The translations under genes and the position numbers were made by a program. The notes under the pieces were generated by a model. The model did no database searches and was not told where the DNA came from. It worked only from the letters and a program-made list of their open reading frames with translations. Below are positions 27,716-45,643 of a stretch of DNA of 64,000 nt, piece by piece. The stretch comes from Adlercreutzia sp. ZJ304 (GTDB lineage: Bacteria; Actinomycetota; Coriobacteriia; Coriobacteriales; Eggerthellaceae). The first letter of the stretch is position 1, and each line of letters begins with the position of its first letter. The DNA is taken from the NCBI RefSeq assembly GCF_011039075.1, contig NZ_JAAKEG010000012.1:1-64000 (forward strand), given 5' to 3'.

Positions 27716-27720
27716 GAGAC

Positions 27721-27786
27721 AAATTAAAATATTTTAATTTGCTATGGAATTATCTGATAGTATTAAAATAATTTAATACTATCAGG
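27721..27786. promoter_or_regulatory. Two palindromes upstream of truncated ATPase gene
   Basis: A perfect 22-bp AT-only palindrome built on CAAATTAAAAT lies at about 27721-27742, and an inverted repeat with 14-bp arms CTGATAGTATTAAA around ATAA lies at 27755-27786. The second ends at GGGAGGCGG, the ribosome binding site. The layout copies that of the previous ATPase gene, but the sequences are unrelated. Confidence 0.65.
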
Positions 27787-27799
27787 GAGGCGGCTGTGG

Positions 27800-28663: not shown

Positions 28664-28817
28664 AAAAGTGGTCAAAACTTCCGACTTTCCACGGTCGGAT
28701 TGCCGTATAGCTGGCTTGAATTGTGGAGAACACTGGGCAAACAGCATTTGATGGTGCATCTATAGGGGCTATTCTGTGCTTTTCACAGTGGAAAGCTGGA
28801 AGTTTTGACCATTTTTC
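28664..28817. mobile_element. MITE-like inverted-repeat element, copy 2
   Basis: The arms are AAAAGTGGTCAAAACTTCC...CTTTCCAC and GTGGAAAG...GTTTTGACCATTTTTC. The interior contains TTGAATTGTGGAGAACACTG, which is the reverse orientation to copies 1, 3 and 5, while the arms are in the same orientation. On the plus strand the interior can be read MENTGQTAFDGASIGAI, a reading partly conserved in copies 3 and 4. Confidence 0.8.
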
Positions 28818-29135: not shown

Positions 29136-31955
29136 ATGCCTACCTTGAGTATGCCCTCTAGGGTCATATCTGGCATGCTTGCAATGTCGTTGGCATGCGG
29201 GTTTATGCCTATTGCAGCTTTTGCTGATAGTGCTGATTCTTCTAGCGAAGTTGATGACCAAAGGGTAGCGTCTAATGTCACGCTTCATCAGACCGACGCT
29301 GAACCTGAAATAGTTTCTGGCAATATTGCTCTTACCAATGAAGCCGAATTGCAGCAAACTCTGATTAGCTACAACGGTTTGAATTTTGAAATCAACCAAG
29401 CTGCGCCGGATACGGTTTCATTAGTGGGTTGGTCAACAGCTGCGCCGAAGGGCGAATTTGTCATCCCGCAGGTTGTGAAATACGGCAGCAAGTCCTTTAC
29501 GGTTACATCTGTCGAAAATTGCTGGGGGGGGTTCAGTGAATTAACCTCTGGTCAGGTTGATCCCCAAAATTTTAAAAATTTTTCGACCGCTAACGCGGCA
29601 ACTACCAATGAAGGTACGGGTGAAAATGCGCCCGCCGCAAATGCAACCGCCGCGAATGCGACTGCAGCAAATGTAACCGCTGCAAATGCGACTGCAGCAA
29701 ACGCGCCTGCTGCAAATGGCGAAAACGCTGCAGAACTAAATCCTTACACAACCGAATATTTTACCGATGCGGAAAAAGCACCTGAGGTAACCTCAATTAC
29801 AATTCCGGCTACAGTCGAAGAAATCGATTTAGCTTTCTTCCAATTATTCCCCAATGCTCAGGCAATAACTGTTGCCGAGGGCAATCAAAACTACAAAAGC
29901 AATAACGGCATGCTGCTAGACGCAGCGCAAACTTGCCTCCTCCTTGTCCCAGAGGGTATGGAGGGCATCGCCGTGCTCCCTGAATCTTTGGCCGCTGTCC
30001 CTGCTTGCGTAATTACCCGTTGCATAAAGCTTTCTGGCCTTAGTTTTCCTGCAGGGAGCACGCTTGATGCGTCTCTGGTAACTCGAAATGGGATTCTATA
30101 TAGCAAAAATATCAACTCTGCCGGCGCAACCGATGACACGCTTACTTTGCTTGCCGCGCCTGCCGGCATAGGCACAAGCGTTGTAATAGACGCTAATTGC
30201 ACAGCCATAGCTGAAGGCGCTTTTTGGGGTTGTCCCAATTTAGCTACCATCGTGGCTGGCGGTAATGTGGGCAGCATTTTCAGCCCGCAAGGTGGCGAAG
30301 GTGGCGAAACCGGCGAAACCGGCGAAACCGGCGGAGCCAGCGAAACCGGCGAAGGCATCCCTGCGTTCAACTCGCAAACTATAGAAAACGCCAACGTCGC
30401 GTTTCGCGTGTCGGCAGACAATTTTGAATCCGCAGCCGCTGCATGGCGCGCTGCTGGCTTTACCAAGTTCACCGAACCCGCCCAGCCCGGCGACACCATT
30501 ACTCCAGAAGACGGGCAGTCGGGTTTCGCGTTCACAATGCTGCCCGACTACACGCTCTCTGTCGGATGGGTGGGCGAAAGCAAGCCCGATGCAGCAATGC
30601 AAGTGCCCGAATACGGCATCTTAAACGGCGTGGAATATACAGTGTCGGCTGTGCAGGACGCCGCATTCCAAGGCTGCGAAAACTTGGTAACGGTGAATCT
30701 GCCGGCAACTGTAACCTCTATTGGTGCCTCTGCCTTCGAGAATTGCGCCAGCTTAGCAACAGTGCAGTTTCCGGGCGGTCTTAGCAGCATTGGCGCAAAC
30801 GCATTCGCGAATACTGGGCTGTGCAGCGTGGTGCTGCCCACGGGTCTTGAGACTGTTGGCAGTCAGGCGTTTGCGGGTCTTGCCGACACGGTAATTGTGG
30901 CTCTGAACAACAACGCGAAAGATGTTGCCGCCGATGCGCTGGCTGGGTGCCGCAATGTGTCGGTTTATGTGCCGCACAGCACAACCGGCGAATACGCATG
31001 GAAGACCGGCTTAACTGCAAGCGGCAATCATCTGTATCCGTATGGCGTGAAGTTTTCCGATTCGCTGTCTAACTTGGCGGTAGGAGATCAGCTGCCAATG
31101 TTTGGCGAAGACGGCTACTTTGAAGCGCCGGGCAATATAGAGGTTGCGTTTAGTTATAAAGCTGCCGCTATCAGCATAGATACTGAAAACTACACGGTGT
31201 CTGCCAAGCGCGAAGGCGAGTGGCGCATAGATATCGACTTGCGCTTGCAGGTGCCAGAAGTGGTGGCTGGTCAGCAGCAAATGCGTAACTTGCAGCTGTC
31301 TCCTGCGGCTTTACGTATGGGGCAGGATGCGGCGCGCGCCACAGCACCAGCGCCAACATTTTCTACAGTGCAGCGCCAGCTAAAGAATTTGGGCGTGGCG
31401 CAAGAAACAGGCACTTATTCTGTTGGGGGCACAGTTCGCTCTGCCGCACAAATTACTGTGGCTGTGCCTATGCGTGCCGTGTTTGACACAACTGCAACAA
31501 GCACCAACGGATACGATGTAAACGCCAACACAGATACTGAAGGCGCCGTGCTTGTTGCCAATTGCTACTTCGAAAACCGCTCTACCGATGGACAGAATGT
31601 CCAACTTACAAATGTGAAATGCGAAGGCACCGATGAAGGTGTTGGCGCAATCTTGCAGCCGCGCACCGGTACGGCGCTTAACCAGACAGAAATGTTTGGC
31701 TTAAGAACCGCCGATAGTGCATCTGATGCAATTACATTTGGCTACGGCGACACCGTTAATTCTAAACCTGTCACCGCCGGTAGTTTCGTGGTTCCATCAG
31801 GCGAAAACAACAAGCTAGACGTGCAATTTACGCTAGATCTTGCAACAAAAACCAAGCTAACCGAGTCGTTCAAAAGCGGCATAGACGCGCATACAACCGA
31901 GCACGACATCGTGAAGGTCATCTATACATTCCAAGCTAATAGTACTACAGGTTAG
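29136..31955 (+). CDS. Secreted BspA-type leucine-rich-repeat surface protein
   Basis: The 939-residue protein starts with a signal peptide (VISGMLAMSLACGFMPIAAFADS). Two blocks of LRR_5/BspA repeats follow: VTSITIPATVEEIDLAFFQL near 200 and AFQGCENLVTVNLPATVTSI, SAFENCASLATVQFPGGLSS near 500. An Ala-Asn-rich repeat (NATAANATAANVTAAN) lies near 170 and a GGEGGETGETGETGG tract near 390. The last 180 residues form a beta-rich domain (ITVAVPMRAVFD, ANCYFENRST, ITFGYGDT, VPSGENNKLDVQFTLDLA) that I also see in the next secreted proteins. There is no sortase motif or C-terminal membrane helix. BspA-type proteins often bind host or bacterial ligands; that is a family guess. Confidence 0.8.
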   Translation: MPTLSMPSRVISGMLAMSLACGFMPIAAFADSADSSSEVDDQRVASNVTLHQTDAEPEIVSGNIALTNEAELQQTLISYNGLNFEINQAAPDTVSLVGWSTAAPKGEFVIPQVVKYGSKSFTVTSVENCWGGFSELTSGQVDPQNFKNFSTANAATTNEGTGENAPAANATAANATAANVTAANATAANAPAANGENAAELNPYTTEYFTDAEKAPEVTSITIPATVEEIDLAFFQLFPNAQAITVAEGNQNYKSNNGMLLDAAQTCLLLVPEGMEGIAVLPESLAAVPACVITRCIKLSGLSFPAGSTLDASLVTRNGILYSKNINSAGATDDTLTLLAAPAGIGTSVVIDANCTAIAEGAFWGCPNLATIVAGGNVGSIFSPQGGEGGETGETGETGGASETGEGIPAFNSQTIENANVAFRVSADNFESAAAAWRAAGFTKFTEPAQPGDTITPEDGQSGFAFTMLPDYTLSVGWVGESKPDAAMQVPEYGILNGVEYTVSAVQDAAFQGCENLVTVNLPATVTSIGASAFENCASLATVQFPGGLSSIGANAFANTGLCSVVLPTGLETVGSQAFAGLADTVIVALNNNAKDVAADALAGCRNVSVYVPHSTTGEYAWKTGLTASGNHLYPYGVKFSDSLSNLAVGDQLPMFGEDGYFEAPGNIEVAFSYKAAAISIDTENYTVSAKREGEWRIDIDLRLQVPEVVAGQQQMRNLQLSPAALRMGQDAARATAPAPTFSTVQRQLKNLGVAQETGTYSVGGTVRSAAQITVAVPMRAVFDTTATSTNGYDVNANTDTEGAVLVANCYFENRSTDGQNVQLTNVKCEGTDEGVGAILQPRTGTALNQTEMFGLRTADSASDAITFGYGDTVNSKPVTAGSFVVPSGENNKLDVQFTLDLATKTKLTESFKSGIDAHTTEHDIVKVIYTFQANSTTG

Positions 31956-31984
31956 GGGTTGCCATTGGTAAATAGCATTTTTCA

Positions 31985-32048
31985 GCGGCGCAAGAGAAGC
32001 CGCGCAGCTCCAATGTGGCTGCTTGCAATCCGCCGGCAGTAATGGCGG
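31985..32048 (+). other. Three consecutive short hairpins in a leader region
   Basis: Three perfect 5-bp stems, each closing a 9-nt loop, follow one another: GCGGC/GCCGC (31985-32003), GCAGC/GCTGC (32004-32022) and CCGCC/GGCGG (32030-32048). They lie about 90 bases before the next start codon. No T-run follows, so they are not an ordinary terminator. Confidence 0.5.
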
Positions 32049-32138
32049 GTTCGGAAATTTAAGCATCGGGAAAAGTTCGATTGTATCGCTTGGGAAATTG
32101 ACATAAGTCAAGGCGTAACTTTCGAAGAAGGGAACAAG

Positions 32139-33986
32139 ATGAAAGCAACAGCAATACCAAAGAAAGTGGCTTGCATAGCGTCAGCGTTGGCGTTGTCGCT
32201 TACTATGGTGCCCGTGGTGCCTATGGTGGGCGGTGCAGATACGCAAGCGCTAGCTGCCGAAGGCAGCACAGACACACCGCCTGTAATAAGCGTTACTGCG
32301 CCTTTCAAAGTTACATTTGGTAGTAAGGAAAACCCATACGACATTAATAACCCTACCAACTTCATGAGTACTACCAGCTATTTCCAAAATGGTGGCACAC
32401 TAGGGCTTAGCGTGTATGAAGTTGAGTGTAATGCGCCGGCAAATTATGGAGCCAGTGGTACCATCCCTGTTGTAGTGAAGAGTACAACTGATAAGGCTGC
32501 GCTGAATACGGGAGACAAAAACCAAAGGCTATTTAGCGTATGGGACGCCAGTAAGGCTGATAGTGAAGCCATACACTTCGGTTATGCTAATAATGGCGAC
32601 ACCAACAAACTAAAAATACAGGATCAATCAATAAATAAGCTTATTGCCGTTCCTCAAGGCAGCACAACAAATGTGAACTATCGCATAAACTTAGGCAACG
32701 GTTTATGCAATGCTGCAATTAATCCAGATGCAGCTCAGTCTTATGACAGTCGTGTTCGTCAAGACCTCGGCACAGTAAAATTCACATTCGGTCGCTGCGC
32801 CCCAATTGGTGATGAAAGATTAACGAAGAAAGCTAACGAAGTTGAAAGTGCGGGTAATTGCGAAGCGCTTTTCGATCAGGTGTCCAATACGGTATTTTAC
32901 TTGCGTGATGCTGCGTCAAAGCAGGTTTATTCACTCGATCAGGTGAAAAAGTCTGCAACACAGTTATCAGAACTAAATGCTAGTGGTGCTGGAAAAGAAA
33001 AACAGTCGCTATACTACGATATGTATCAGCAGTTCATAGAAAGCGACGAAGGCGAAGACTACGAATGCCGCACTAAGTGGACATTGCCCGACGATGCCAC
33101 ACTTGCCGATCCTACGAAGCAATATACTATCGGAAGTCCTATTACAATAGCAAAAGAATCGGTTTATCGTCTGCGTATTTTAGATACACTTTACGACTAC
33201 GACACCGAAAATAACAGAAAAGCTGGAATTACTTTCCAGTTTAAAAATGCGTATAACAAAAATCCAAATGCGAATTTGCAGATGTATAAAAGTGCGGAAA
33301 TTGCGGCAAATAATGGTTATAAAGCGTCTTGGATACGTGCAATTATGAATCCGGGCAATCCAGATGATCAGTATAACAATGAGGAATTTGGTACCGATAC
33401 AAATGAAATCTGGAACGCAATTCCAAGTGATATGCAATCCAGAATTGTGCAAATTGGAAAGTTTGCTAGCACAAATGCTGAAGCTTGCGATCAGGTTTCA
33501 GCACCAAGCAAAATAGCTGCTTTGAATAAAGAGCGACTATTTATAGCAAGTTACGCAGAGACTTTTGGTAGTGAAAATATAATTATTTCATGCGGTGCAA
33601 TAGAAGTTGATAAATGGGCGTGGCTAAAATACGAAGGTTCATCTGATGGAACTGAGCAACCATCAATAACAGTTCAGCCGTACAAATTCTATAGTGATCT
33701 TGATAGAGAATTCATATCCACACCTAAAGATGCTGCAGCTAATAGAAAATGGTATCTTGATTATATAAATTTAATGAGATACGACGATGGTTTTCCGGGT
33801 GATATGGGTCAGGGACCAATGTTTAGATCTTTGTATCCTTTTGGCGGCGAGAAAGGTGTCGCTGCATATGAGGGTTTATCTGGAAATACAATGAATCTTA
33901 TCCCGGAGTATCCTAATGTTCTTTTTGACGATGGTACATTCGTAGCCAGCATGGGCAGAGCATTACATCCCTGCTTCTGTTTCTAA
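32139..33986 (+). CDS. Secreted surface protein of unknown function
   Basis: The 615-residue protein begins with a signal peptide (IASALALSLTMVPVVPMVGGADTQALA). The first 200 residues resemble the C-terminal beta domain of the preceding protein: ISVTAPFKVTFGS, TTSYFQNGGTLGLSVYEVEC, IHFGYANNGD, VPQGSTTNVNYRINLGNG, LGTVKFTFGRCAP. The rest is unrecognised; its end (MFRSLYPFGG ... FDDGTFVASMGRALHPCFCF) is reminiscent of DUF6273-type domains, which end in a RP-aromatic stretch. GAAGAAGGGAACAAG precedes the ATG. There is no sortase signal. Its second half is visibly more AT-rich than its neighbours, which may mark an exchanged domain. Confidence 0.7.
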   Translation: MKATAIPKKVACIASALALSLTMVPVVPMVGGADTQALAAEGSTDTPPVISVTAPFKVTFGSKENPYDINNPTNFMSTTSYFQNGGTLGLSVYEVECNAPANYGASGTIPVVVKSTTDKAALNTGDKNQRLFSVWDASKADSEAIHFGYANNGDTNKLKIQDQSINKLIAVPQGSTTNVNYRINLGNGLCNAAINPDAAQSYDSRVRQDLGTVKFTFGRCAPIGDERLTKKANEVESAGNCEALFDQVSNTVFYLRDAASKQVYSLDQVKKSATQLSELNASGAGKEKQSLYYDMYQQFIESDEGEDYECRTKWTLPDDATLADPTKQYTIGSPITIAKESVYRLRILDTLYDYDTENNRKAGITFQFKNAYNKNPNANLQMYKSAEIAANNGYKASWIRAIMNPGNPDDQYNNEEFGTDTNEIWNAIPSDMQSRIVQIGKFASTNAEACDQVSAPSKIAALNKERLFIASYAETFGSENIIISCGAIEVDKWAWLKYEGSSDGTEQPSITVQPYKFYSDLDREFISTPKDAAANRKWYLDYINLMRYDDGFPGDMGQGPMFRSLYPFGGEKGVAAYEGLSGNTMNLIPEYPNVLFDDGTFVASMGRALHPCFCF

Positions 33987-34216
33987 AGGTGGGCAGTCGT
34001 AAGTAGCAATTTAGCAATCTTATAAAAATTGAACCTATCGGTCGGGTAGGGATGGGTTAGTAAAACTCTGCCCGACCAACAATCTAATAACAGTGCTCTA
34101 GCGGGCATTTTAGGTAAACACATGCATGTGGGTAGGGCAAAGTGCGCCAAAATCCAACCTTCGTCCACCCCACATTGCAAATGTTTCACATGAAACATTT
34201 TGACAACTAGCACTTT
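33987..34216. other. Intergenic region with inverted repeats
   Basis: No gene is seen. An inverted repeat GGTCGGGTAG/CTGCCCGACC (34040-34049, 34068-34077) lies after the preceding gene and may be a weak terminator without T-run. A perfect CACATGCATGTG palindrome lies near 34121. The parS-like site at 34182 follows. Confidence 0.4.
34182..34197. promoter_or_regulatory. parS-like site (one mismatch)
   Basis: TGTTTCACATGAAACA differs by one central base from the bacterial parS consensus TGTTTCACGTGAAACA, the ParB/Spo0J binding site. It is the weaker of two site types here because the central CpG is lost. Confidence 0.5.
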
Positions 34217-34342
34217 GACAATCGAATAGAAGATTTCGAATCAAGCATAAAAGTAAAGCACCGACCCAAGGGAAACTACATCCCCATGCCAGTGCTTCAC
34301 TAAATATTACCTTATTGCATGCATGTCTTCTATTCGGTTGCC
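34217..34342. repeat. Inverted-repeat-bounded cassette 1
   Basis: The left end GACAATCGAATAGAAG (34217-34232) is the inverted match of the right end CTTCTATTCGGTTGCC (34327-34342). I see no gene inside the 126 bp. The left repeat is preceded by GCACTT, so it contains TTGACA, a possible -35 box. Confidence 0.65.
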
Positions 34343-34357
34343 ACATATAAGCACTTT

Positions 34358-34671
34358 GACAATCGAATAGAAGACAAGGTTTAATTTGTCCGTTTTTCGC
34401 AAACTATCTACAATGTGGGTAAGCATTCGGAATCAAGGAGTTAATCATGACGCAAACTGATGAATCGCGAATGCGGGAATCTGAGTTAAAGAGCGAACCG
34501 GAAATCAATTGGGATGACCCTGCCATGATTAGACCGGATGAAAAAACTGGCATTACCATTCTCCCAGCAGAATTATATTTCCCTGAAGATGATGGTTTGT
34601 ATGACGACTTAATAAAATAATGCCTGTTGCGTAGTTTCCTTAACTAAATATTTGTCTTCTATTCGGTTGTC
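34358..34671. repeat. Inverted-repeat-bounded cassette 2
   Basis: GACAATCGAATAGAAGACAA (34358) faces TTGTCTTCTATTCGGTTGTC (ends 34671), a 20-bp inverted repeat with one mismatch. It contains one 57-codon gene. TTGACA (34356-34361) and TTTAAT (34380-34385) with an 18-base spacer form a promoter for it that overlaps the left repeat. Confidence 0.7.
34447..34620 (+). CDS. Small acidic protein in cassette 2
   Basis: A 57-residue acidic protein (MTQTDESRMRESELKSEPEI, NWDDPAMIRPDEKTG, LYFPEDDGLYDDLIK) with AAGGAGTTAATC before the ATG. I do not recognise it. Its size, strong ribosome binding site and own promoter inside a repeat-bounded unit suggest a real gene rather than noise. Confidence 0.55.
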   Translation: MTQTDESRMRESELKSEPEINWDDPAMIRPDEKTGITILPAELYFPEDDGLYDDLIK

Positions 34672-34729
34672 AGAAATGGCAGCCGTTTTTGTTGTGCGGT
34701 ATTGGCAACAAAAGCGATGCCAAAAGAAA

Positions 34730-34745
34730 TGTTTCACATGAAACA
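34730..34745. promoter_or_regulatory. parS-like site (one mismatch), second copy
   Basis: TGTTTCACATGAAACA again, identical to 34182-34197 and followed by the same TTTTGACAAC. Because it is part of a longer local repeat it may have been copied with it. Confidence 0.5.
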
Positions 34746-34764
34746 TTTTGACAACAAGCACTTT

Positions 34765-35064
34765 GACAATCGAATAGGCATGCAAGTAATCTTATGCAAT
34801 AAGCTAGGCATGAGAGGTGGATACAATGGAGCCAATTAAAACTATGGACGGCAAAGTAGTTACCGAAGAAATGCTTGACAGTTTTGAGGCTGCATTAAGT
34901 CAAGACGACTGGGCGGATAATTGGCAATTCACCGGATCGATAATAGAGGGTGCACCGCCTCTAAATACTGCTAATGAAATGCTGGCTAAGACTGTTTAAG
35001 TAAACTCAATATATTAAAGCGTCGCGCTGCGGCGCATATGTCCTTGCATTCCTATTCGGTTGTC
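34765..35064. repeat. Inverted-repeat-bounded cassette 3
   Basis: GACAATCGAATAGGCATGCA (34765) faces TTGCATTCCTATTCGGTTGTC (ends 35064). It holds one 57-codon gene. Directly after the right end, AGAAATGGCAGCCGTTTTTG with a TTGTTGC/GCAACAA hairpin repeats the sequence that follows cassette 2 (34672-34712). Confidence 0.65.
34826..34999 (+). CDS. Small acidic protein in cassette 3, antitoxin-like start
   Basis: A 57-residue protein (MEPIKTMDGKVVTEEMLDSF, EAALSQDDWADNWQF, IEGAPPL). GAGAGGTGG precedes the ATG at 34826; a GTG at 34817 is in frame but would sit on the ribosome binding site. The TEEMLDSFEAAL...GxPPL layout recalls the N-terminal half of some actinobacterial ribbon-helix-helix antitoxins, but the DNA-binding half is absent. 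I give that only as a weak resemblance. Confidence 0.5.
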   Translation: MEPIKTMDGKVVTEEMLDSFEAALSQDDWADNWQFTGSIIEGAPPLNTANEMLAKTV

Positions 35065-35161
35065 AGAAATGGCAGCCGTTTTTGTTGCGCGGCATTGGCA
35101 ACAAAGGCGGCATGGGAACACCAAGCGGGCTAAGCGCCCGATGACGAAGGAAGCGAATGGC

Positions 35162-38029
35162 ATGTTAAGGACAGCAACCTTGCACGATATTCGAAAACCG
35201 ATAGCGGCCGTTATTGCAAGCGTAATTGCGCTTGTTTGCGCATTGGTTGTGGTGGCTTGGGCACCATCGGGCGCATTTGCAACGGAAATAGAATATACGC
35301 AGGACTTGGGTGTTTTTGTTGGCGCTAACAAAGTGAAAGATGGAAGCGCGGGGCTTGACGAAGAGCATTTCCGCGACCCGTCTAGCGTGGGCGCTTCTGC
35401 CAATGTTGACTTAGGCATTTATGTCGGGTCGCCTTCCGAAAGCGAGCAAATAACCGGTTCCGACAACAAAGATACCGACCATTTCCGCGACCCGTCTAGC
35501 GTGGGCGCTTCTGCCAATGTTGACTTGGGTATTTATGTTGGGTCGCCTTCTGAAAGCGAGCAATCGACAGGTGCCAAAGACGAAGAGCATTTCCGCGACC
35601 CGTCTACTGTCGGCGCTACGGCTGATGTAGATTTGGGAATTTATGTAGGTGGCGCAACCAACCCTGCAGATAGCCAGATGCAAGATGTTGTCGACGGTGG
35701 CACTGGTGATGGCAACCCGTCCGAAGCCGGCAAAATTCAGACAAGCACCGACCTTGGCATATACGTTGGCGATAATGGTTTAACAATAACTCGCCCGGGC
35801 ACAACGGATGCAAGTGGTAATACCAGCGTTGGCATAACTACCGACTTGGGTATATACGTTGGCAACGGCGAAAGCGATCCTAATATCACTGGCACCGATA
35901 CTCCGAATTTGGACGAGTACAGCACAACAACAGATTGCAATGTTGACCTTGGCATATATGTTGGCGAGCTTAGCAGCGAAACTGAAGTTGGCACCGATAC
36001 TCCGAACCCGGACGAGTACGGTACAACCATAGACCACAACGTTGACTTGGGTATATATGTTGGCGACGGCGCAACCGATCCTAATATCACCGACACCGAT
36101 ACTCCGAAGTTGGACGAGTACAGCACAACTATAGACCGCGAAGTTAACCTAGGTATTTATGTGGGCGGCACCATTGATTCCGAAACTGGCACAGGTGCGG
36201 TTAACCCATCGACCACGCTGGCGATACGTGTTGTTAACCCCGAAGTTGAGCCTGACGTTACAGAAGCCGATACGGCGCGTACAACTTGGCAGCTTGGCGA
36301 TGCAAGCGGTGCCAAGTGGGCTGACAATACAACTAATGTAAAGAGCAGCTTTGTGAAAATTCCCGCTGGCGGCAGCGTGGCGGCTGGCTCTGAACTGCCG
36401 GGTGGTGGCAACCCTGAGGCAACGTATCAACATGTGTCTGGTTGGCAGGTTGTAGATAAGTCTGATGGTGCTACCAACACTAGCACGGTTGCGGCTGATG
36501 GATTAGGTGCATTAACACTTCAAGGCAAGCACGACTACACATTTACGCCGCTTTGGGAAGGCAAGGAATACAGCGTTACGCTTAACCCGAACGGTGGCAA
36601 TGTTTATGGTTCTACATCTCCTGTAACCAAGACATACAAATACCCTGATGCGTTCACTACGCCAACATACCCGGATGTGTGGCGTGCAGCTAAGGATGCT
36701 AATACCGCTTATGAGTTTGCGGGTTGGTATACAGCGCTTGACGCTTCTGGCAAGGGTGTAGGCTCTGCTGTTACCAGTGTTACTGCTGAAAGCGGAATAA
36801 CCGAACTTCATGCAGCTTGGAATGAGATAACTATTAGCCCGGATGATCCGCCTACTTCCGGGGAATACGCAACGATTAACTTCGTGATAAGCGGCGGACC
36901 AGCCGGTGCACCAAGCGCGCCTCCGGATATGTATGTGAAATATGGCAACAAACTTGCTGTAAGCAGTTTGCCGCAGCCCGCATCTGTTGAGGGCTATACA
37001 TTCAAAGGCTGGTATTCGGATTCGGCTTGCACGGCGGATGCTGCAAATATAGATAGCGTTACTGAAAACATCACTTTCTATGGTAGATGGCAAAATAACA
37101 GCAATGCAATAGTTACATTCGATGCAAATGGTGGAAGTTTCGATGGTGGTGCACCCACTACTACGGTTGATGTTCCTATTGGTGATGCGCTAAACAGCGT
37201 TGCGGGCTTCACTTATCCCAAAGTTACGCGCACGGGCTATTTGTTTGCAGGCTGGTATACAGGAACGCCCAGCGATAGCGGCGGCGTGCAGCTTGGAAGC
37301 GAATGGGATATTTCCACCTCAATCAATAGCGATTTAACCCTGTATGCCAAGTGGATTGCGCTTGTAAATGTAGATGTTCCGGTAGAAGCGCAGATACAGC
37401 TAGTACATACAGGCACCGGGGCTGCTGGCGATGAATTTGTGGTGAACGCAAAGACATTCGGTCAGTTCCAGAACAGAAGCGATGTGAACATTGGCATATA
37501 CGATGTGACCAGCGTGGACAACGCCGCTGCCGCGTTGGCTGAGCTGGATAAAGGCGCAGCGGATGCTACCGACGCTAGTAGCAACTACAGCAAGTCGTAT
37601 CTGACCATACTTGCTAAGAAGGATGGCAGCGCGGTTGTATTGCCTGAAGGCGGCTTTGCGGAATTGGATAAAACAATTCTCGAAAGTGGTTTACCGGCTT
37701 CTGCTTACCAAATAAGCACCGATTTAAGCCAGTTCAGCGACAACTTCTGGATTTACAAGTACCAGCTGAATGCTGAGATGGCGAATGGCCCCGGCGACTT
37801 GCGCTTAACTTCACGCAATAGCGAAGTCATGTACATAGAGCCTGCCACTGGCGAAGGCACGGCGCTTGTGCCCGGCAAGCTGCCGGTGTACTACGGCGTA
37901 ACTTTCGACACCGGTTTCGACATTACGAAAGCCGATTTGGAAGATTTGAACGGTCTGAAAAAGATTGCAACTTTGAAATACACGATAGGCGTATACGAGC
38001 CGCCGGCTTCGGCAGGATCCGGCAGCTAG
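35162..38029 (+). CDS. Secreted repeat protein: LGIYVG repeats and InlB-type B repeats
   Basis: The protein (955 residues from this start) has a signal peptide (AAVIASVIALVCALVVVAWA, then ATE). Residues about 45-350 contain nine copies of a [VTN][DN]LGIYVG motif; two long copies share HFRDPSSVGASANVDLGIYV and three share DTPxxDEYxTTxD. Three InlB B-repeats follow (TLNPNGGNVYG ... FAGWYT; FKGWYS ... ITFYGRW; TFDANGGSFDG ... FAGWYTG ... LTLYAKW). The C-terminal 220 residues (VNVDVPVEAQIQLVH ... LPVYYGVTFDTGF ... LKYTIGVY) look like the beta domain of neighbouring proteins. There is no LPXTG signal. ATGs at 35141 and earlier are possible starts; I chose the one with GAAGGA upstream and a compact signal peptide. 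Confidence 0.75.
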   Translation: MLRTATLHDIRKPIAAVIASVIALVCALVVVAWAPSGAFATEIEYTQDLGVFVGANKVKDGSAGLDEEHFRDPSSVGASANVDLGIYVGSPSESEQITGSDNKDTDHFRDPSSVGASANVDLGIYVGSPSESEQSTGAKDEEHFRDPSTVGATADVDLGIYVGGATNPADSQMQDVVDGGTGDGNPSEAGKIQTSTDLGIYVGDNGLTITRPGTTDASGNTSVGITTDLGIYVGNGESDPNITGTDTPNLDEYSTTTDCNVDLGIYVGELSSETEVGTDTPNPDEYGTTIDHNVDLGIYVGDGATDPNITDTDTPKLDEYSTTIDREVNLGIYVGGTIDSETGTGAVNPSTTLAIRVVNPEVEPDVTEADTARTTWQLGDASGAKWADNTTNVKSSFVKIPAGGSVAAGSELPGGGNPEATYQHVSGWQVVDKSDGATNTSTVAADGLGALTLQGKHDYTFTPLWEGKEYSVTLNPNGGNVYGSTSPVTKTYKYPDAFTTPTYPDVWRAAKDANTAYEFAGWYTALDASGKGVGSAVTSVTAESGITELHAAWNEITISPDDPPTSGEYATINFVISGGPAGAPSAPPDMYVKYGNKLAVSSLPQPASVEGYTFKGWYSDSACTADAANIDSVTENITFYGRWQNNSNAIVTFDANGGSFDGGAPTTTVDVPIGDALNSVAGFTYPKVTRTGYLFAGWYTGTPSDSGGVQLGSEWDISTSINSDLTLYAKWIALVNVDVPVEAQIQLVHTGTGAAGDEFVVNAKTFGQFQNRSDVNIGIYDVTSVDNAAAALAELDKGAADATDASSNYSKSYLTILAKKDGSAVVLPEGGFAELDKTILESGLPASAYQISTDLSQFSDNFWIYKYQLNAEMANGPGDLRLTSRNSEVMYIEPATGEGTALVPGKLPVYYGVTFDTGFDITKADLEDLNGLKKIATLKYTIGVYEPPASAGSGS

Positions 38030-38104
38030 GGCTAGCAATTGTAGGGCGCTGTGGGCGCGAAGAATGTAGAAGCGCGTTGCGCTAAGACAAGAAAAAGGAC
38101 AGAA

Positions 38105-38746
38105 ATGACAAACGACAACAACAATCAGCGACTAAGCGGAAAAGTGAACATGCGGGTGCCCGGCGGGAATTCCGAGCAGGCTCCGGGCAGACCTAGCGCC
38201 AGCAGGCGACCAAGTGCGCAGGGCGCTACTGCTGCGGTGTCTGGGGAAAATCGCAAGAAACGCACCGTGATTATTGTAATAGCGTGCGTTGTGGTGGCGC
38301 TGGCTGCATGGTTGCTTATTTGGCTGTTCGCGTGCAACGGAAACAGCTTGCTAGACCCGAATGCGCGGACCGGTCAGGCGCCTTACAAGAGCCAAGAAGA
38401 AATGCAGGCGGAAATTGACCGCGTGGTTGAGGAAGGCATGTTCAACATTTCTATTGCCAGTGTTATTGAGTTTGCCGACGGTGCATCGAACGGGACGGCA
38501 TACATCGAGAACGTGCCGGGCAATCAGTACAACATGCAGGTTGTGATAACTGACGATACGACCGGTGAGGTGCTCTACGAAAGCGGAATGCTTCAGCCGA
38601 ATCAGTACATCGAGAACATTACGCTGACGAAAGATTTGGACGCTGGCACTTATGCTGCGACTGCCACATTTACGGCGCTTGACCCCACAACATACGAGGA
38701 AGTAGGGCAAGCCGCCGCAAAGATAACGCTGAACGTGGCAGCTTAG
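38105..38746 (+). CDS. Single-pass membrane protein, paralogue of 40293-41222
   Basis: The 213-residue protein has a polar, Arg/Pro-rich cytoplasmic N-terminus (about 55 residues), one membrane helix (TVIIVIACVVVALAAWLLIW) and an outside domain of about 115 residues: EEMQAEIDRVVEEGMFNISI, YIENVPGNQYNMQVVI, LYESGMLQPNQYIENI and AGTYAATATFTALDP, EVGQAAAKITLNV. The same domain, residue for residue in many places, ends the second membrane protein of the locus. The pattern of alternating strands suggests an Ig-like fold. AAGGACAGAA precedes the ATG at 38105. Function unknown; it lies between two secreted proteins, so an anchor or assembly role is a guess. Confidence 0.7.
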   Translation: MTNDNNNQRLSGKVNMRVPGGNSEQAPGRPSASRRPSAQGATAAVSGENRKKRTVIIVIACVVVALAAWLLIWLFACNGNSLLDPNARTGQAPYKSQEEMQAEIDRVVEEGMFNISIASVIEFADGASNGTAYIENVPGNQYNMQVVITDDTTGEVLYESGMLQPNQYIENITLTKDLDAGTYAATATFTALDPTTYEEVGQAAAKITLNVAA

Positions 38747-38754
38747 GGATGGAA

Positions 38755-38994
38755 GGAGAGAGCGGGGATATGCGCTGGGGTGAGCAGGCTGTGGAGCGAG
38801 CGGGGATATGCTCAGTCGCGCGTGTCTTAAAAATGTTTCACGTGAAACATTTTTGAAGTCACCAAGAACGTAAGAGCAGGTAGGGGTGGCTGCGGAATGC
38901 TCAGTCGCTCTGCAGTCCTCGCTCTGCAGAAATGTTCACAGAACATTTCTGTTCGCTGCGGAACTCGCTTTGTGAGCACACCCCCGCTCTCTCC
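38755..38994. repeat. Inverted repeat enclosing a parS site
   Basis: GGAGAGAGCGGGG (38755-38767) is exactly inverted as CCCCGCTCTCTCC (38982-38994). Inside are a second GAGCGGGGATATGC copy, the exact parS-like palindrome, and a 10-bp-arm palindrome AGAAATGTTC-ACA-GAACATTTCT near 38929-38951. No gene is seen. Confidence 0.6.
38834..38849. promoter_or_regulatory. Exact parS-consensus site
   Basis: TGTTTCACGTGAAACA matches the broadly conserved bacterial parS site 16/16. It is the core of a perfect 26-bp palindrome with AAAAA/TTTTT ends (38829-38854), so it could also work as a bidirectional terminator hairpin. ParB binding is inferred from sequence alone. Confidence 0.65.
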
Positions 38995-39059
38995 AGTTCC
39001 TTGGAGCAACTGAAAGAAAGGTTTTAGAAGAGATGCATTACAGGCAAAGACAGTGAGGG

Positions 39060-39198
39060 CTTCTGTGACGTTTCAGATTGGCGCGAAAGACATGCACCGC
39101 ACGCCTCTGTGCGGCGGTGTATGGCTTGAACGCCAAGGTGAAATGTCACAGAAGGTCGCAACGTCGGCCCGTTCCGGACGCCGATAGGCGTGCGGAAC
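39060..39198 (+). other. Nested hairpins in the leader of a surface gene (candidate structured RNA)
   Basis: Outer arms CTTCTGTGACGTTTCA (39060-39075) and TGAAATGTCACAGAAG (39139-39154) pair with one mismatch. Within them TTGGCG/CGCCAA and ACCGCAC/GTGCGGCGGT pair as well, giving a long stem with internal loops. A second hairpin GTTCCG...ACGCC-GATA-GGCGT...CGGAAC follows at about 39171-39198. The ribosome binding site AAAGGAGG lies just downstream. Confidence 0.5.
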
Positions 39199-39243
39199 AC
39201 AAAAAGCAGGACGAAATGGCTGATAACTAAAGGAGGAAAAGCC

Positions 39244-40257
39244 ATGAAGAAGACTAGTAAGGTTTTGAGCGCTATAGGGCTTAGCGCTGCGCTGGCTGTA
39301 GGAACCGCACTGCCAGCATTCGCTGCACCGGCAGCACCGTTCGACGAGATAGGCGAAAGTACTGAAGATAATCCTGCACCAAAGGTCGATGAATACGGTC
39401 AAGTGGATAATGGTGCAACAGAAAACTTTAAAGACACTAACGATAGTGACAGTGTAGAAAAGAAAGAAGCTACAGCAAGCACGGAAGCATATCTGGGTGC
39501 TGTCACCTATCAGATAGATGCAACGCTTCCCTTGAAGATTGCTATGGTTGGCGATATGGGTGGCGGCAAGCTGATGACCCCGCACTCTGGCATTTACACT
39601 ATCACCAACAATAACGACCAAGCTGGTCTTGTAGTTTCTGGAATCGAAACCGAAATGTATGCAGGTGACGGTGTTACTGTGACCACAGGTACAACTCAAG
39701 TTGATTGGCTGCCAAGTAAGGGTGAGGATATCGCCATAGCGGAGGATCCAACTTCTTATAATCCGTATATAAAGATAAGCGATACTGATGAAGCTCAAGT
39801 TTCTGCTAAATACGGTGTAATTGCAGCCAATTTGACAGCCGGTTATTTTGACAGCACTGCCAATGTTTCCGATTCCGCTAAGAAAGCAGATCGGACATTT
39901 GTGAAGCAGGAAACTACTGCCAAAATTGTTGGTGACGTTACAGCTGACGCTGGTGGTTCCACATATGTACAAATGAAAAAAACGATTAACAATTTGAATT
40001 ACATCATTCCTCGCAAGGGCAATACTACTGTAGAATCTGCTGGAGATGCTAGTGGTAAGGTCTTAGCGAACGAACTAGGTCTGCAGCTTGATGTAGCTAG
40101 CTCGAAGCTTTTGAACTACAACGAGGAAGCAGGATTCGTTAAGGCTTTCACCATCAAATTCACTGTGCGTGCACCGCAGCATGTTGCAGATCTCAAGAAA
40201 GATTCAACTGGTAATACAGATTTCTTCGACCAATGGGATATGTACAAAAGCGCATAA
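39244..40257 (+). CDS. Secreted surface protein, abundant-type signals
   Basis: The 337-residue protein starts with a clear signal peptide (MKKTSKVLSAIGLSAALAVG, TALPAFAAP). After an acidic spacer the rest is a beta-rich domain related by eye to those of the other secreted proteins: VTYQIDATLPLKIAMVG, GIYTITNNNDQAGLVVSGIE, then LNYIIPRKG and FTIKFTVRAPQ at the end. There is no sortase motif or transmembrane anchor. AAAGGAGGAAAAGCC before the ATG is the strongest ribosome binding site in the locus, and a structured leader precedes it, so this may be the main, most expressed subunit. That is an inference. Confidence 0.7.
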   Translation: MKKTSKVLSAIGLSAALAVGTALPAFAAPAAPFDEIGESTEDNPAPKVDEYGQVDNGATENFKDTNDSDSVEKKEATASTEAYLGAVTYQIDATLPLKIAMVGDMGGGKLMTPHSGIYTITNNNDQAGLVVSGIETEMYAGDGVTVTTGTTQVDWLPSKGEDIAIAEDPTSYNPYIKISDTDEAQVSAKYGVIAANLTAGYFDSTANVSDSAKKADRTFVKQETTAKIVGDVTADAGGSTYVQMKKTINNLNYIIPRKGNTTVESAGDASGKVLANELGLQLDVASSKLLNYNEEAGFVKAFTIKFTVRAPQHVADLKKDSTGNTDFFDQWDMYKSA

Positions 40258-40292
40258 GCCACTAACAACCTACAACAAAAGGAACACTCGAT

Positions 40293-41222
40293 ATGGCACC
40301 GAATAGCAATAACTCGCAAAACCCTTACAACGACCCAAATTTTGGGGCGACGTGCGGCGATGCGCAAAACGGTGCCACTAGGGTGCATGGCTACGGCATG
40401 GGGAGAGGCGCTAATCAAGCGCCTCAACCCGGCTCTTTGCCGTATGGGTATCAGCCGCAGGCAGGTGGTCAGCCGCAGGCAGGTCAGCCGCAGGCAGGTG
40501 GTCAGCCCTACGCTGGTCAACCTAGCGCCGTCAATCAACCCTACGCTGGTCAGCCACATGCGGGTCAACCTTACGCAGGTCAACCCTACGCTGGTCAGCC
40601 GTACACACAGCAAGGCAATGCAGCGGCTTATCAGCAGTACGCGCCGCAGTATGCGCAGTACATCGCAGCGCAACAAATGGGCTATCAAGCGCCGACCACA
40701 AGTCAGACCACAAACGACAACGGCAAGCAACGCAAGCGCGGACCCGTATTCTGGATTGCAATTGTAGTTGCAATACTTGCTGTTATAGCGGCTGTGCTTA
40801 TAGGCATGCAAATGTGCAACGGCGGCAAAAATCGTGCGGGCGATTTAGGTCAGCTAGAAGGCAAAACAGCCGAAGAAATTCAGGCAGAACTTGATAGAAC
40901 TGTAGATGAGGGAATGTTCAACATATCCATTGCGTCAATAGTACAGTTCCAAGATGGCACAAGCGCAGGCGAAATAAAAATAGAAAATGTGCCCGGAAAC
41001 AGATATTTGATGCAGGTTGTTTTAACGCTAGACAGCGATGGGCAGCAAGTGTACGAAAGCGGAATTATAGAGCCGAACCACCACATACAAAGCGACAAGC
41101 TGGCTGTAGATTTGCCTGCGGGCACTTACCCGGCAACAGCCACTTTCACAGCGCTAGACCCTGAAACCGAGGAAGAAATAGGGCAGGCTGCGGCGAAAGT
41201 AACGCTAGTGGTGCTGAGTTGA
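40293..41222 (+). CDS. Single-pass membrane protein with QPYAG repeats, paralogue of 38105-38746
   Basis: The 309-residue protein has a long cytoplasmic N-terminus with about ten Gln-Pro-Tyr-Ala-Gly type repeats (QPQAGGQPQAGQPQ, QPYAGQPHAGQPYAGQPYAG; residues 50-110), one membrane helix (VFWIAIVVAILAVIAAVLIG) and the exposed domain EGMFNISIASIVQF, IKIENVPGNRYLMQVVL, VYESGIIEPNHHI, AGTYPATATFTALDP, EIGQAAAKVTLVV. The C-terminal domain matches the 38105 protein closely; the N-terminal region does not, so domains have evolved separately. AAAGGAACACTCGAT precedes the ATG. It lies 35 bases after the secreted protein gene and is probably cotranscribed with it. Confidence 0.72.
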   Translation: MAPNSNNSQNPYNDPNFGATCGDAQNGATRVHGYGMGRGANQAPQPGSLPYGYQPQAGGQPQAGQPQAGGQPYAGQPSAVNQPYAGQPHAGQPYAGQPYAGQPYTQQGNAAAYQQYAPQYAQYIAAQQMGYQAPTTSQTTNDNGKQRKRGPVFWIAIVVAILAVIAAVLIGMQMCNGGKNRAGDLGQLEGKTAEEIQAELDRTVDEGMFNISIASIVQFQDGTSAGEIKIENVPGNRYLMQVVLTLDSDGQQVYESGIIEPNHHIQSDKLAVDLPAGTYPATATFTALDPETEEEIGQAAAKVTLVVLS

Positions 41223-41226
41223 TTGC

Positions 41227-41308
41227 TCGTCATTCCAAACAAAATTGGTGGGCGTGGCATCTAGTTTAAGCCCGACCTATCGCGCGTAGGTTTTGTTCGG
41301 AATGGCGA
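41227..41308 (+). other. Long inverted repeat between surface genes
   Basis: CGTCATTCCAAACAAAA (41227-41243) and TTTTGTTCGGAATGGCG (41292-41308) pair with two mismatches, and GGTGGGC/GCCCGACC inside can pair too. It lies between the membrane-protein gene and the large anchored protein, where it could be a terminator-attenuator or a leader element. Confidence 0.5.
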
Positions 41309-41353
41309 TCTAAAGGGATTTGCTGGGAAAGGGATTTGGAAAAGGAATTCGCT

Positions 41354-44300
41354 ATGAAATGCTTCACGAAAAAGATTCTGAGCGTGTTCGTTGCGGTGGC
41401 ACTATGCGTTGGCATGGTGCCAATTGTTGCGAATGCGTCCACGGCGGACGGCTTGGACAAAACTGCCGACGAACAGGCTGTAGACGACAGCTTTGGCAGC
41501 GTAGGCGGCAACTCGGTTGAGGAAACGCAGCAGCAAATTGACGAGTTTGCTGCCTCGCCAACGAATGCGGGTAGCACGCCGGCGGGTGCCGAGAAGCATG
41601 ACCAAATTTCCACAACAGCATACATTGCAGCCACCGAACTTGGTTTTCGATTCACCCAGATAAGTAACGACGTGGTGTTTACAGGCGCGGATACGGAAAC
41701 GTTGCAGTTCAGCACCGAGGGCGCGTCGCTTTCCGGCGATAAATATCTGTACAGCTATGTTTGGTATATAGACAAAAACGACGGTGCGGGCGCAACGGAA
41801 ATTACCCGCGCCTCTACATTTGACGGCACCGACAAAGATGGCAAGCACACCTTCGAGCTGCCTATAAGCAGCGCTGGTATGCAGCCAGATGACGTATGGA
41901 CATACTGGGTAGAGGTAACAAACGATGCCGGTTCGCTTTCAAAAACGCTGAATGGCGAGGCGGACACTAGGCGCGTAGTTAGCGTTTCTTATAATCCCGA
42001 ATTGCGCACACAGCCGCTGTATTGGAACAAAACCGACAAGCAAGATGCAACTGAGGACAACTACATATGGAAAGCTGAAGGCAACATTCTAAAGGAATCT
42101 ATTTTAGATGTGGACGAAGTTGCTGCCAGCAAAGAAATGGGCGATTTTGCAACCGGGCTTGATGCGGTAATAACCGAGGGCTCGGTGTGGCTTCCAAAAA
42201 TTGTGAACGATTCAGAGAAAGATGTATATAGCGACACGCTTGCGCTGACTTATGACATATCTGGTTATGCTGTAAGCGATGATGGTGCCTCGGGCGCATC
42301 AATTTTGGATACTGTTAGCGCTTTAAGCGATAAGTCGCCTGAAAACATAGCCAAAACGCTTGACGCGGCGGGCGTTCATCTGCTGTGGCAAAAAGACGCG
42401 GAAACAAGCCCTGCGCTGGCATCTTCTGCTGCAAGTTTAGATGGTGTTCAATATGTATATGAAAACGCAGTATCGGGTAAGCCGGCGCGTGTTGTCGCAG
42501 TAATTGGCGTGCCTGCGGGTGCGGGTCGTGTGTTTGGCACTTTCGCGCTAACTCATAAGGTTGTAAAGCCAAGTGAAGACGATGTTGCTTTTACATTCAC
42601 GCCTAAAGTAAAGATTGAAGGCGCTGCTGAAGATGCCGAAACCGACGGCAATGTGGTGCTGCCTGCCGAGGGCTATAAGCGCAACTTAGGCGCAACCGAT
42701 GTTCAATTCACCATGCATCCAAACATTAGTGCCGAGCCGCCGTACTACGTTAGCAATGTTACAATCTTCAAAGGCGGCGCAGGTGGCACGGGCGGCACGG
42801 GTGGCGCAGGCGCGGGCGCGGGTGGCACGGGCGGCACGGAAATTTCGCTTACCCCCGAGCAGCTTACTATTCAGGGCAATGTAATCAAATTCGCCAAACT
42901 AAGCCGCGAAATGTTCGGCTTAGATGCAGACGACACTTCATGCAATATAACTGTGCAGGTTACTTTTGCGAAAAAGGCTGTCGCACCCGAAAACCCCGAT
43001 GAATTGGTCGATGTAGAAATTATTAAAACCGGTGAAGAGCCAGATTTAAGTCAGGTGATGGTTTTAGTAGACGGTGCGGAGGTTGCGCCTAAAGGCGGTT
43101 CTGGCAATACGTATCAAGTCCCCAAAGATGGCGCGTTTCAGCTTAGCTTCAACACCGACAAGGGTAAGCGCGTAGAGTCGGTTACGGTAACTCCCGTGAA
43201 CCCGGATGGCAGCTTAAACGATGCAGATGCGAAAATTTACACTGTAGATGGCGACAATCTGTCCATTTCCAACTATTCAACGCCGCTTCAAATTACAGTG
43301 AATTATGTGGCAGGAACTATTGTGGTGCCCCAGCATACAGTTAGCGTTATGCAGGCTGGCGACACGAACCCTGTAGCGCTTAGCGCAGGCAGCGTGAATG
43401 GCGGCACCGGACCGTTCACCGTGAAAAACACCGATAACATAACTTTGAATGCCGCGCCGAATTTGGGATACGAAATAACGGGCGCAAAAGCCACCTTTAC
43501 TAGCGGAAACATTGTTAGCTATTCCGCGGAAGAAGCGCCGTCTATTACATTGCTGAATGTTGTTGAAGATGTTGAGGTGGTGTATAGCTTCCGCGCGCTC
43601 GACTACAAAATAGACGTTGTGGTGGATGGCAACAGCACGCCCGATTCAAAAGGCAATGTGAGCGGCGGCGATTCTGCGGGAGATATAGTTGCCACTATGC
43701 CTAGCGTTAAAGGCGGTCAGACGTACATTTCCCACGACAACCAGCTTGTAATAAAAGCTTCGCCCAACAGTGGCTTCGATATCAAAAAAGATGCGGGCGG
43801 CAACCCTGTTATAACCCTGAAAGGGGAAAACGGTAATGTGTTAGACGTTACGGGCAAGCCTGCAGGTGATGGATATTCGTTTAGTGTGGGTTTGACCGAA
43901 TTGCTGTCTAGCAACATTATCAGCAGTACCACGCCCGACGCCGCCCAAGAAATTGAGGTTCTTTACAGCTTTGAGCGCGTGCCTTCTTCGGTCAAAAGTT
44001 TTGTGGTAGAAACGAAAGTTGAGGGCAATGGCGGCAAAATAACGCCTACACAAACTGTAACTCAGGATGCTAGCGGCGTTGCGTCGGCGCGAGTATATTT
44101 CTATCCGGCAGAGGCGCAAGATGGTAAATATTGGGCTGTAGATGCCGTTACGGTAGATGGCTTGGACGCAGCATCTTCCGACGCGGCGAAATATGGCGAT
44201 GTATCTAGCGTAGATCTTATTGGCAAGCGCCCGAATATAGTTTTTGAAAACCTAACCGCCGACCATACGGTAGTTGTTAAGTTTAAGCAGGTTAGCGAAG

Positions 44301-45643
44301 ACCCGGGCTATGACAGCAGCACCGAAATAAGCGGAGACGTGGGTGGCAACGGAGAAGGAACCATTACCGGCGGCGGTAGCGATGTTCCCGTTTGGAGTGG
44401 TGACGGCGACACATCGAACGACTTTGACGGCGAAGGTGATGGCGATGGTCGCGATTGGACTGCAATTCCCAAGCCCGGCAAAAATGAGGATGGCACATAT
44501 AACGTGGTAGACAGCGTAGTTGTAAATGTTGACGGCACCGACTTCACCATTTACTGGACAGATCGCAGCCAGCCGGCAACAGGAGATGGGTTTAACCCGC
44601 ACGACTATGTGTTATCGCCCGATGGGCTTGATAGGGAAGGCGCGGATGCGGATGGCTTGTACACGTACTACTATCCGAACAAGGAAGGCGCTACTACCAT
44701 CTTCACGTTCGATCCCGTTACAAAAACGGTTAACTTTTTGCGGTTGGGGAATAGTGTTAAACCGCAGTTCGGAATAGAAAAAGCACGCCAAATACAGGTA
44801 GTTATAGATACTGGTGGCGGTGAGGGCATAGCCACACATGGCGGGGTTTATTCGTGGCTTGTGGGCGATAGCGGCGCAGAGGATTTAATGATTGTTATAA
44901 CGCCCTTAGAAGGTAGCGACTTAGATTATGTGCGTCTAAACGATAGCGAAGTGCCCGATGGATGGCTTGAAGACCGCACAGAAAGCGGGCTTTCAGAGAA
45001 AGGCAAGCAAACACTTGCTAATGCGGAAAACAAAAACATACGCGTTGCTTCCGTAACGCCGCAGGTTAGCGAAAGTCGCTCTATAGCTGCACTGTTAAGC
45101 GGGGCTGAATATGCTTACGCTGACGAGGCGCAGGTGAAGCAGAAATTGTATGAGCTTACTGTTCCGTCAAAGAATTTGCGCGAAATGACAGACGATTTAA
45201 TTGTGCATGTGCGATTCAAGTTGATGGGCGAAGATACTTTTACCCTTGTAGCTAGCGTGGCTAACGACAATTATGGTTCTATTGTTGAAGAGCCTGTACA
45301 ATCTGTGAAGCGGGGAGACGAATTTACATTCCATTTCAAGCCTAAGAATGAAAGCTGGCGCGTGGCTAACATTGTCGTTGATGGCAAAAAGCAAGATTGG
45401 AATATGTCTTCTTACACGTTTAGCAACGTGCAAGCAGACCATACTTTAGTTGTAGAGTTTGGACCGGTGCCGTATTCGGGCAGCAATACCAAGGCTTCGC
45501 GCGAAATACGTCGTTTGCAGGCGCTAGCCAAAACAGGAGACTTAAATGCACCTGCATGCACGCTTCTTATGGCGCTTGCATGTGGAGCGGCTGGCGTAGC
45601 GGTTCTGTCTGGCAATCGTAGCCGCCGGCGCAAAGAAGACTAG
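41354..45643 (+). CDS. Large secreted surface protein with LAKTG sorting-like signal
   Basis: The 1429-residue protein starts with a signal peptide (ILSVFVAVALCVGMVPIVANAS). The body is a series of beta-rich modules: an Ig-like segment near 130-190 (YLYSYVWYIDKND ... WTYWVEVTNDAGS), a Gly-rich linker (GGAGGTGGTGGAG), and several B-repeat/divergent modules each opening VxVxxxGNGGxIxP and closing VVVKFK or LVVEFG. The C-terminus is a sorting-signal layout: LAKTGD, a hydrophobic stretch ACTLLMALACGAAGVAVLSG, then NRSRRRKED. Ala replaces the Pro of LPXTG. AAAGGAATTC precedes the ATG at 41354. It is the only protein of the locus with such an end, so it may be the cell-wall anchor of the group; the sortase itself is not in the window. 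Confidence 0.8.
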   Translation: MKCFTKKILSVFVAVALCVGMVPIVANASTADGLDKTADEQAVDDSFGSVGGNSVEETQQQIDEFAASPTNAGSTPAGAEKHDQISTTAYIAATELGFRFTQISNDVVFTGADTETLQFSTEGASLSGDKYLYSYVWYIDKNDGAGATEITRASTFDGTDKDGKHTFELPISSAGMQPDDVWTYWVEVTNDAGSLSKTLNGEADTRRVVSVSYNPELRTQPLYWNKTDKQDATEDNYIWKAEGNILKESILDVDEVAASKEMGDFATGLDAVITEGSVWLPKIVNDSEKDVYSDTLALTYDISGYAVSDDGASGASILDTVSALSDKSPENIAKTLDAAGVHLLWQKDAETSPALASSAASLDGVQYVYENAVSGKPARVVAVIGVPAGAGRVFGTFALTHKVVKPSEDDVAFTFTPKVKIEGAAEDAETDGNVVLPAEGYKRNLGATDVQFTMHPNISAEPPYYVSNVTIFKGGAGGTGGTGGAGAGAGGTGGTEISLTPEQLTIQGNVIKFAKLSREMFGLDADDTSCNITVQVTFAKKAVAPENPDELVDVEIIKTGEEPDLSQVMVLVDGAEVAPKGGSGNTYQVPKDGAFQLSFNTDKGKRVESVTVTPVNPDGSLNDADAKIYTVDGDNLSISNYSTPLQITVNYVAGTIVVPQHTVSVMQAGDTNPVALSAGSVNGGTGPFTVKNTDNITLNAAPNLGYEITGAKATFTSGNIVSYSAEEAPSITLLNVVEDVEVVYSFRALDYKIDVVVDGNSTPDSKGNVSGGDSAGDIVATMPSVKGGQTYISHDNQLVIKASPNSGFDIKKDAGGNPVITLKGENGNVLDVTGKPAGDGYSFSVGLTELLSSNIISSTTPDAAQEIEVLYSFERVPSSVKSFVVETKVEGNGGKITPTQTVTQDASGVASARVYFYPAEAQDGKYWAVDAVTVDGLDAASSDAAKYGDVSSVDLIGKRPNIVFENLTADHTVVVKFKQVSEDPGYDSSTEISGDVGGNGEGTITGGGSDVPVWSGDGDTSNDFDGEGDGDGRDWTAIPKPGKNEDGTYNVVDSVVVNVDGTDFTIYWTDRSQPATGDGFNPHDYVLSPDGLDREGADADGLYTYYYPNKEGATTIFTFDPVTKTVNFLRLGNSVKPQFGIEKARQIQVVIDTGGGEGIATHGGVYSWLVGDSGAEDLMIVITPLEGSDLDYVRLNDSEVPDGWLEDRTESGLSEKGKQTLANAENKNIRVASVTPQVSESRSIAALLSGAEYAYADEAQVKQKLYELTVPSKNLREMTDDLIVHVRFKLMGEDTFTLVASVANDNYGSIVEEPVQSVKRGDEFTFHFKPKNESWRVANIVVDGKKQDWNMSSYTFSNVQADHTLVVEFGPVPYSGSNTKASREIRRLQALAKTGDLNAPACTLLMALACGAAGVAVLSGNRSRRRKED

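Follow-up and report, generated by a model that had tools for sequence, protein, structure and literature searches.

A repeated seven-gene cassette for putative surface proteins, with candidate poly-G switches, in Adlercreutzia sp. ZJ304

Layout of the locus and domains of its proteins

The window, that is, the whole 64,000-nucleotide stretch of Adlercreutzia sp. ZJ304 DNA that was analysed, contains seven open reading frames (g1 to g7) that follow one another without interruption on the + strand between 29136 and 45643, as the first-pass annotation had described. Hydropathy also agrees with that annotation in assigning a signal-like hydrophobic N-terminus to the five proteins at 29136, 32139, 35162, 39244 and 41354, and one internal transmembrane (TM) segment to each of the two at 38105 and 40293, which had been called single-pass membrane proteins; the sorting-like end ascribed to the last protein alone corresponds to a C-terminal TM segment after LAKTGD, present in 41354 only. 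The genes and features are as follows.

29136..31955, + strand: g1, secreted BspA-type leucine-rich-repeat (LRR) protein (Pfam LRR_5, E 5.5e-27)
29524..29531, + strand: poly-G tract of g1, here G8 and in frame, a candidate slipped-strand switch
about 31449-31955, + strand: C-terminal beta domain of g1, homologous to the N-terminus of the protein at 32139
32139..33986, + strand: g2, secreted, its C-terminal part orthologous to DUF6273 proteins
about 32283-32789, + strand: N-terminal beta domain of g2
35162..38029, + strand: g3, secreted, with DLGIYVG repeats and Listeria-Bacteroides (Flg_new) repeats (Pfam Flg_new, E 4.7e-23)
about 37361-38029, + strand: C-terminal domain of g3, weakly linked to the beta domain
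38105..38746, + strand: g4, type II membrane protein with a single TM, a conserved linker and an Ig-like ectodomain
38351-38743, + strand: g4 ectodomain, Ig-like in the model (pLDDT 85.7)
38834..38849: perfect palindrome TGTTTCACGTGAAACA, parS-like, between g4 and g5 (pattern search)
39244..40257, + strand: g5, small secreted protein, probably a beta domain, by alignment the most variable among the small genes
40293..41222, + strand: g6, also a type II membrane protein, whose N-terminal tail is Q/A/G/P-rich and whose ectodomain is homologous to that of g4
41354..45643, + strand: g7, large secreted protein ending in LAKTGD, a TM and a basic tail
45524..45541, + strand: LAKTGD sorting-like motif in g7

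A Pfam scan of this cassette assigns LRR_5 to g1 and Flg_new to g3, and the other five proteins give no convincing match; among these is g2 of the window, of which a paralogue (locus L019) matches DUF6273 above the cut-off (E 2.7e-7), the PCFCF end of g2 being the final strand of the DUF6273-like domain. A diversity-generating retroelement targeting g2 was also considered and ruled out, an RVT_1 match being found nowhere in the genome. The gap of about 1 kb between g2 and g3 (33987-35060) is confirmed as real and contains short intergenic repeats; two 57-aa open reading frames, at 34447-34620 and 34826-34999, lie amid near-identical repeats of 50-60 bp and have no match in a Pfam search.

Several other elements lie in or beside the cassette. 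The palindrome TGTTTCACGTGAAACA, or its CACATG variant, recurs between genes in several cassettes and in relatives (in the window also at 34182-34197 and 34730-34745; elsewhere at L009:10683, L013:11064, L018:2953, L019:12473, L045:12553 and 12668, and L052:543), and its remaining copies in the genome cluster mainly on contig C33; these palindromes may represent ParB sites or hairpins resembling terminators. A MITE-like repeat of about 155 bp with inverted ends of about 32 bp is found on both sides of the cassette (28664-28816, 48338-48485, 52863-53016 and 63104-63267), and since it is dispersed across the genome, in about 40 copies, it is not a feature of the cassette. Upstream, at 26528-28624, are two adjoining AAA/DUF4143 open reading frames, the second of which is without the ATPase part.

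The beta domains were compared as signal-trimmed profiles by profile-profile alignment in hhalign, with 60 decoy comparisons, real and reversed, whose best score is 23.9 when two decoys sharing the Flg_new repeat with the query are left aside; the E-values of these comparisons are uncalibrated. The g1 C-terminus matches the g2 N-terminus strongly (99%, score 116.6), g5 matches the g2 N-terminus moderately (77%, 39.8) and the g1 C-terminus weakly (15%, 27.3), and the score of 23.6 between the g3 C-terminus and g5 provides no direct link. In relatives of the cassette, described below, the g3 C-terminus matches the big protein of Eggerthellaceae (98%, 90.9, in part through the common Flg_new repeat) and that of Clostridia (68%, 38.8), and g5 matches the C-termini of the big Clostridia proteins (97.9%, 87.3). 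From these scores, the g1 C-terminus and g2 N-terminus are homologous at the sequence level, g5 probably belongs to the same family, and the g3 C-terminus possibly does; thus, the domain that had been proposed by eye as common to four secreted proteins holds for those at 29136 and 32139 and probably for that at 39244, and extends only possibly, through the big proteins of relatives, to that at 35162. The beta domain is missing from g1 in four paralogues, where the protein ends before it. A low-confidence model of g5 (pLDDT 67) is jelly-roll-like, with viral capsid matches of Z up to 6.6 and no WxL or pilin structure among the matches listed, and these fold matches are left unused because of the low confidence of the model.

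The membrane proteins g4 and g6 are homologues of each other, with 33 invariant columns across 20 aligned g4/g6 proteins. This relationship, like the multiple cassettes and the poly-G tract described below, had escaped the first-pass annotation. The g4 ectodomain is confidently predicted to be Ig-like, its model being a seven-stranded sandwich for which the structure matches, all with Z under 8 and none specific, represent common Ig arrangements only (GbpA domain 3, Z 7.7, 2.9 A over 97 residues); no credible relative of solved structure is obtained in a sequence search. In a tree based on few columns and with many forks unresolved, the upstream (g4) and downstream (g6) proteins fall mostly in separate groups across both phyla, Actinomycetota and the Clostridia lineage, which suggests that the pair is old, and paralogues largely group by species.

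Copies, relatives and poly-G tracts

Searched with g4, the 2.0-Mb genome yields 25 places, of which 24 match strongly; nearly all are arranged in A/B pairs that lie 1.6-2.4 kb apart with a divergent g5 between them. Ten distinct paralogous cassettes are recognised (that of the window, two on contig C25, and one each on C12, C10, C29, C32, C31, C5 and C28), beyond which C29 holds a partial, identical copy in tandem, and C6 and C7 carry the C32 cassette again at their contig ends. Together the cassettes account for at least 6.9% of the genome (137 kb), three of them being cut by contig ends, and they are considered dispersed because their flanking genes differ. The tandem copy on C29 (159-176 kb, L013/L014) comprises 8.3 kb and most of one cassette, with identical g4 copies and a g6-g1 junction, and may be either a true duplication or an assembly artefact.

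Within this genome the membrane parts are conserved, whereas the secreted cargo is divergent. The mean pairwise identity among paralogues is 76% for the g4 ectodomain and 63% for that of g6; it reaches 70% in the signal peptide of g5 and 29% in its mature part, 31% and 29% in the two halves of g2, 27% in the g3 C-terminus, and 28% in g7, the last 50 residues of which stand at 47%.

A scan of genome contigs identifies relatives in Adlercreutzia murintestinalis, Gordonibacter, Enteroscipio, Christensenella and Anaerotruncus, and in Oscillospiraceae and Eubacteriaceae MAGs. In most of them, whether Eggerthellaceae or Clostridia, the order runs from a big secreted protein through g4, g5 and g6 to g7, the single big protein taking the place of g1 to g3; in Clostridia its end is a g5-like domain, and in A. 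murintestinalis it combines g1-like LRR with g3-like repeats in a single polypeptide. The ectodomain is present in 20 copies in A. murintestinalis, seven each in Christensenella and Anaerotruncus, and two to four in the other Clostridia searched; matches occur in 68 of 398 Coriobacteriia genomes and, many of them weak, in 15 of 391 genomes of the class to which one Oscillospiraceae locus belongs. Other Coriobacteriia have smaller modules in which a TM protein adjoins a g5-like protein. Conservation of gene order in other genomes, on which the first-pass annotation had made its proposal of a multi-part surface locus depend, is therefore found in many genomes of both Eggerthellaceae and Clostridia, and supports the co-inheritance of the parts. 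The cassette is not described in the literature covered on surface clusters or phase variation in Adlercreutzia, Eggerthellaceae and Christensenella, which is weak evidence, as most subscription journals lay outside that coverage.

The G8 tract at 29524 is the only homopolymer of at least eight in the window, and tracts at the same place occur in g1 of the C12 cassette (G10) and of the two C25 cassettes (G9 and G11); the frame is intact with G8 and G10, and broken with G9 and G11, reopening in another frame. In all, four of the seven g1 genes have the tract, and those without it are the fully read gene on C28 and the genes on C10 and C29, which are cut by contig ends or the duplication junction. 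In the whole genome there are six runs of G or C of at least eight: four in g1 genes, which make up about 1% of the sequence, one where a SipW-like signal peptidase gene begins, and one elsewhere; about 15 would be expected in 2 Mb under a first-order Markov model with the composition of the window, so that the genome has, if anything, few long G runs. In A. murintestinalis (L045) a G10 tract at the same place is in frame, and in two cassettes of genome G085 a G9 tract is followed by a stop 11 residues on, with the LRR frame open beyond. As in contingency loci, then, a simple repeat sets the reading frame and its length differs between homologues; these lengths come from draft assemblies, in which consensus errors are possible, and are compared between paralogues and species. 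From the sequence, the g1 tracts look like the signature of slipped-strand phase variation. The locus of the SipW-like gene (L095:10191-12812; C28:52804 in the same genome), in which that gene, with its G9 tract, is followed by a large secreted protein whose signal region is TasA-like, is a candidate for a second phase-variable surface locus.

Possible organisation of the surface proteins

The preferred reading, with a probability of about 0.55, treats the locus as a single instance of a multi-copy, phase-variable surface-display cassette; it builds on the observed gene order, homologies, copy number, contrast in identity, and tract lengths and frames, while docking, sortase attachment, switching in vivo and adhesion are all inferred. 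The Sec-secreted proteins would bear variable adhesive parts (LRR, DUF6273 and InlB-like repeats); g4 and g6, as membrane-tethered Ig-like proteins, would dock the beta domains and thereby keep the secreted proteins and g5 at the surface; a sortase would attach g7 to the wall; and the poly-G tract in the head gene of several cassettes would turn the LRR protein on or off by slipped-strand mispairing. If individual cassettes are switched in this way, the mixture of paralogues on display would differ from cell to cell. The means by which gut bacteria of the Eggerthellaceae retain their surface proteins and vary them are poorly known, and the cassette, at about 7% of a small genome, would, if the reading is true, be a main route of interaction with host, phage or mucus. 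A wider and more tentative proposal is that of a distinct, WxL-independent display machine of Eggerthellaceae and Clostridia, with a dedicated pair of Ig-like, membrane-tethered docking proteins around a variable beta protein; Adlercreutzia-like bacteria would have multiplied it about tenfold and would switch it cassette by cassette through poly-G tracts, yielding combinatorial surface variation.

All ten g7 paralogues end in LA[KRQ]TGD, a TM and a basic tail, with the motif 36-46 residues from the C-terminus. The genome has four sortase-family matches, three of them above the Pfam cut-off, on other contigs or far from cassettes; for two of these proteins class B sortase is the best-scoring family, with scores under the NCBIfam cut-off. 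In the window itself a sortase search gives no match, and no class C or pilin-polymerising sortase is found in the locus. The cassette resembles the sortase-assembled pili of Gram-positive bacteria in having surface proteins with a sorting-like signal, but differs from them in that the locus is without a sortase gene and the sorting-like end is on one protein only; with these points, and with a g5 model too weak for a pilin or WxL fold to be assigned, the earlier suggestion of a surface fibre or scaffold stays conjectural. A true fibre, with g5 as the repeating subunit, g4 and g6 as membrane-bound PapD-like chaperones, the big protein as tip and g7 as base, is considered unlikely: the pilus chaperones FaeE, FimC and PapD are among the Ig folds that the g4 ectodomain resembles (Z 6.4-6.8), and a g5-like domain closes the big Clostridia protein, as would suit a tip adhesin, but the chaperone values are no better than those of unrelated Ig folds in the same list, the mature parts of g5 diverge strongly between cassettes, and no polymerisation signal is identified. 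Even less probable are independent, co-transcribed adhesins whose order reflects shared regulation only, with g4 and g6 in an unrelated envelope role; such an arrangement would fit the frequent lack of separate counterparts of g1 and g2 elsewhere and the conjectural nature of docking by g4 and g6, but is difficult to reconcile with a g4-g5-g6 order retained across two phyla and with the small modules of other Coriobacteriia, in which the TM protein adjoins g5.

Comparison with known systems

As regards the candidate switch, the closest likeness is with Candidatus Mycoplasma girerdii, where phase-variable BspA-like proteins have dinucleotide repeats shown to be variable in reads (PMC5476646). 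Both have many-copy BspA LRR surface proteins with short repeats that would switch the frame; the cassette differs in its use of poly-G and in the placing of the tract inside a multi-gene set, and its variation is seen between paralogues and species only.

As regards the layout, the cassette follows the same logic as the csc/WxL clusters of Bacillota (cscA-D; WxLIP) (PMC1534035, PMC9772566, PMC10599100), in agreement with the earlier characterisation of the locus as WxL-cluster logic without the WxL motif. In both cases there are several clusters per genome and all proteins are secreted, a small protein consists of the domain alone and a large adhesin carries it C-terminally, as found for g5 and the big Clostridia proteins, and an Ig-like membrane-anchored protein accompanies one that is anchored by a sortase, putatively so for g7. 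Membership of the WxL family is nevertheless rejected: the Pfam scan of the cassette proteins gives no WxL, DUF916 or DUF3324 match, the 15 weak families matched by 26 g4/g6 ectodomains at E up to 1 include neither DUF916 nor DUF3324, and most beta domains have zero or one WxL motif, the four of the window having none. True homology with csc/WxL clusters through domains diverged beyond recognition, which the same list of parts and the many copies per genome might favour (PMC1534035, PMC10599100), is the least probable of the alternatives, given the missing Pfam matches, the lack of paired motifs in most members and a TM that is C-terminal in DUF916 proteins but N-terminal in g4 and g6. The cassette further differs in having two type II membrane proteins that flank the small protein, in the size of its LAxTG protein (850-2700 aa vs 90-140 in csc) and in its occurrence in Actinomycetota and Clostridia. 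In summary, the surface-display cassette is best read as a parallel to the csc/WxL layout, built from a domain set that is either unrelated or unrecognisably diverged.
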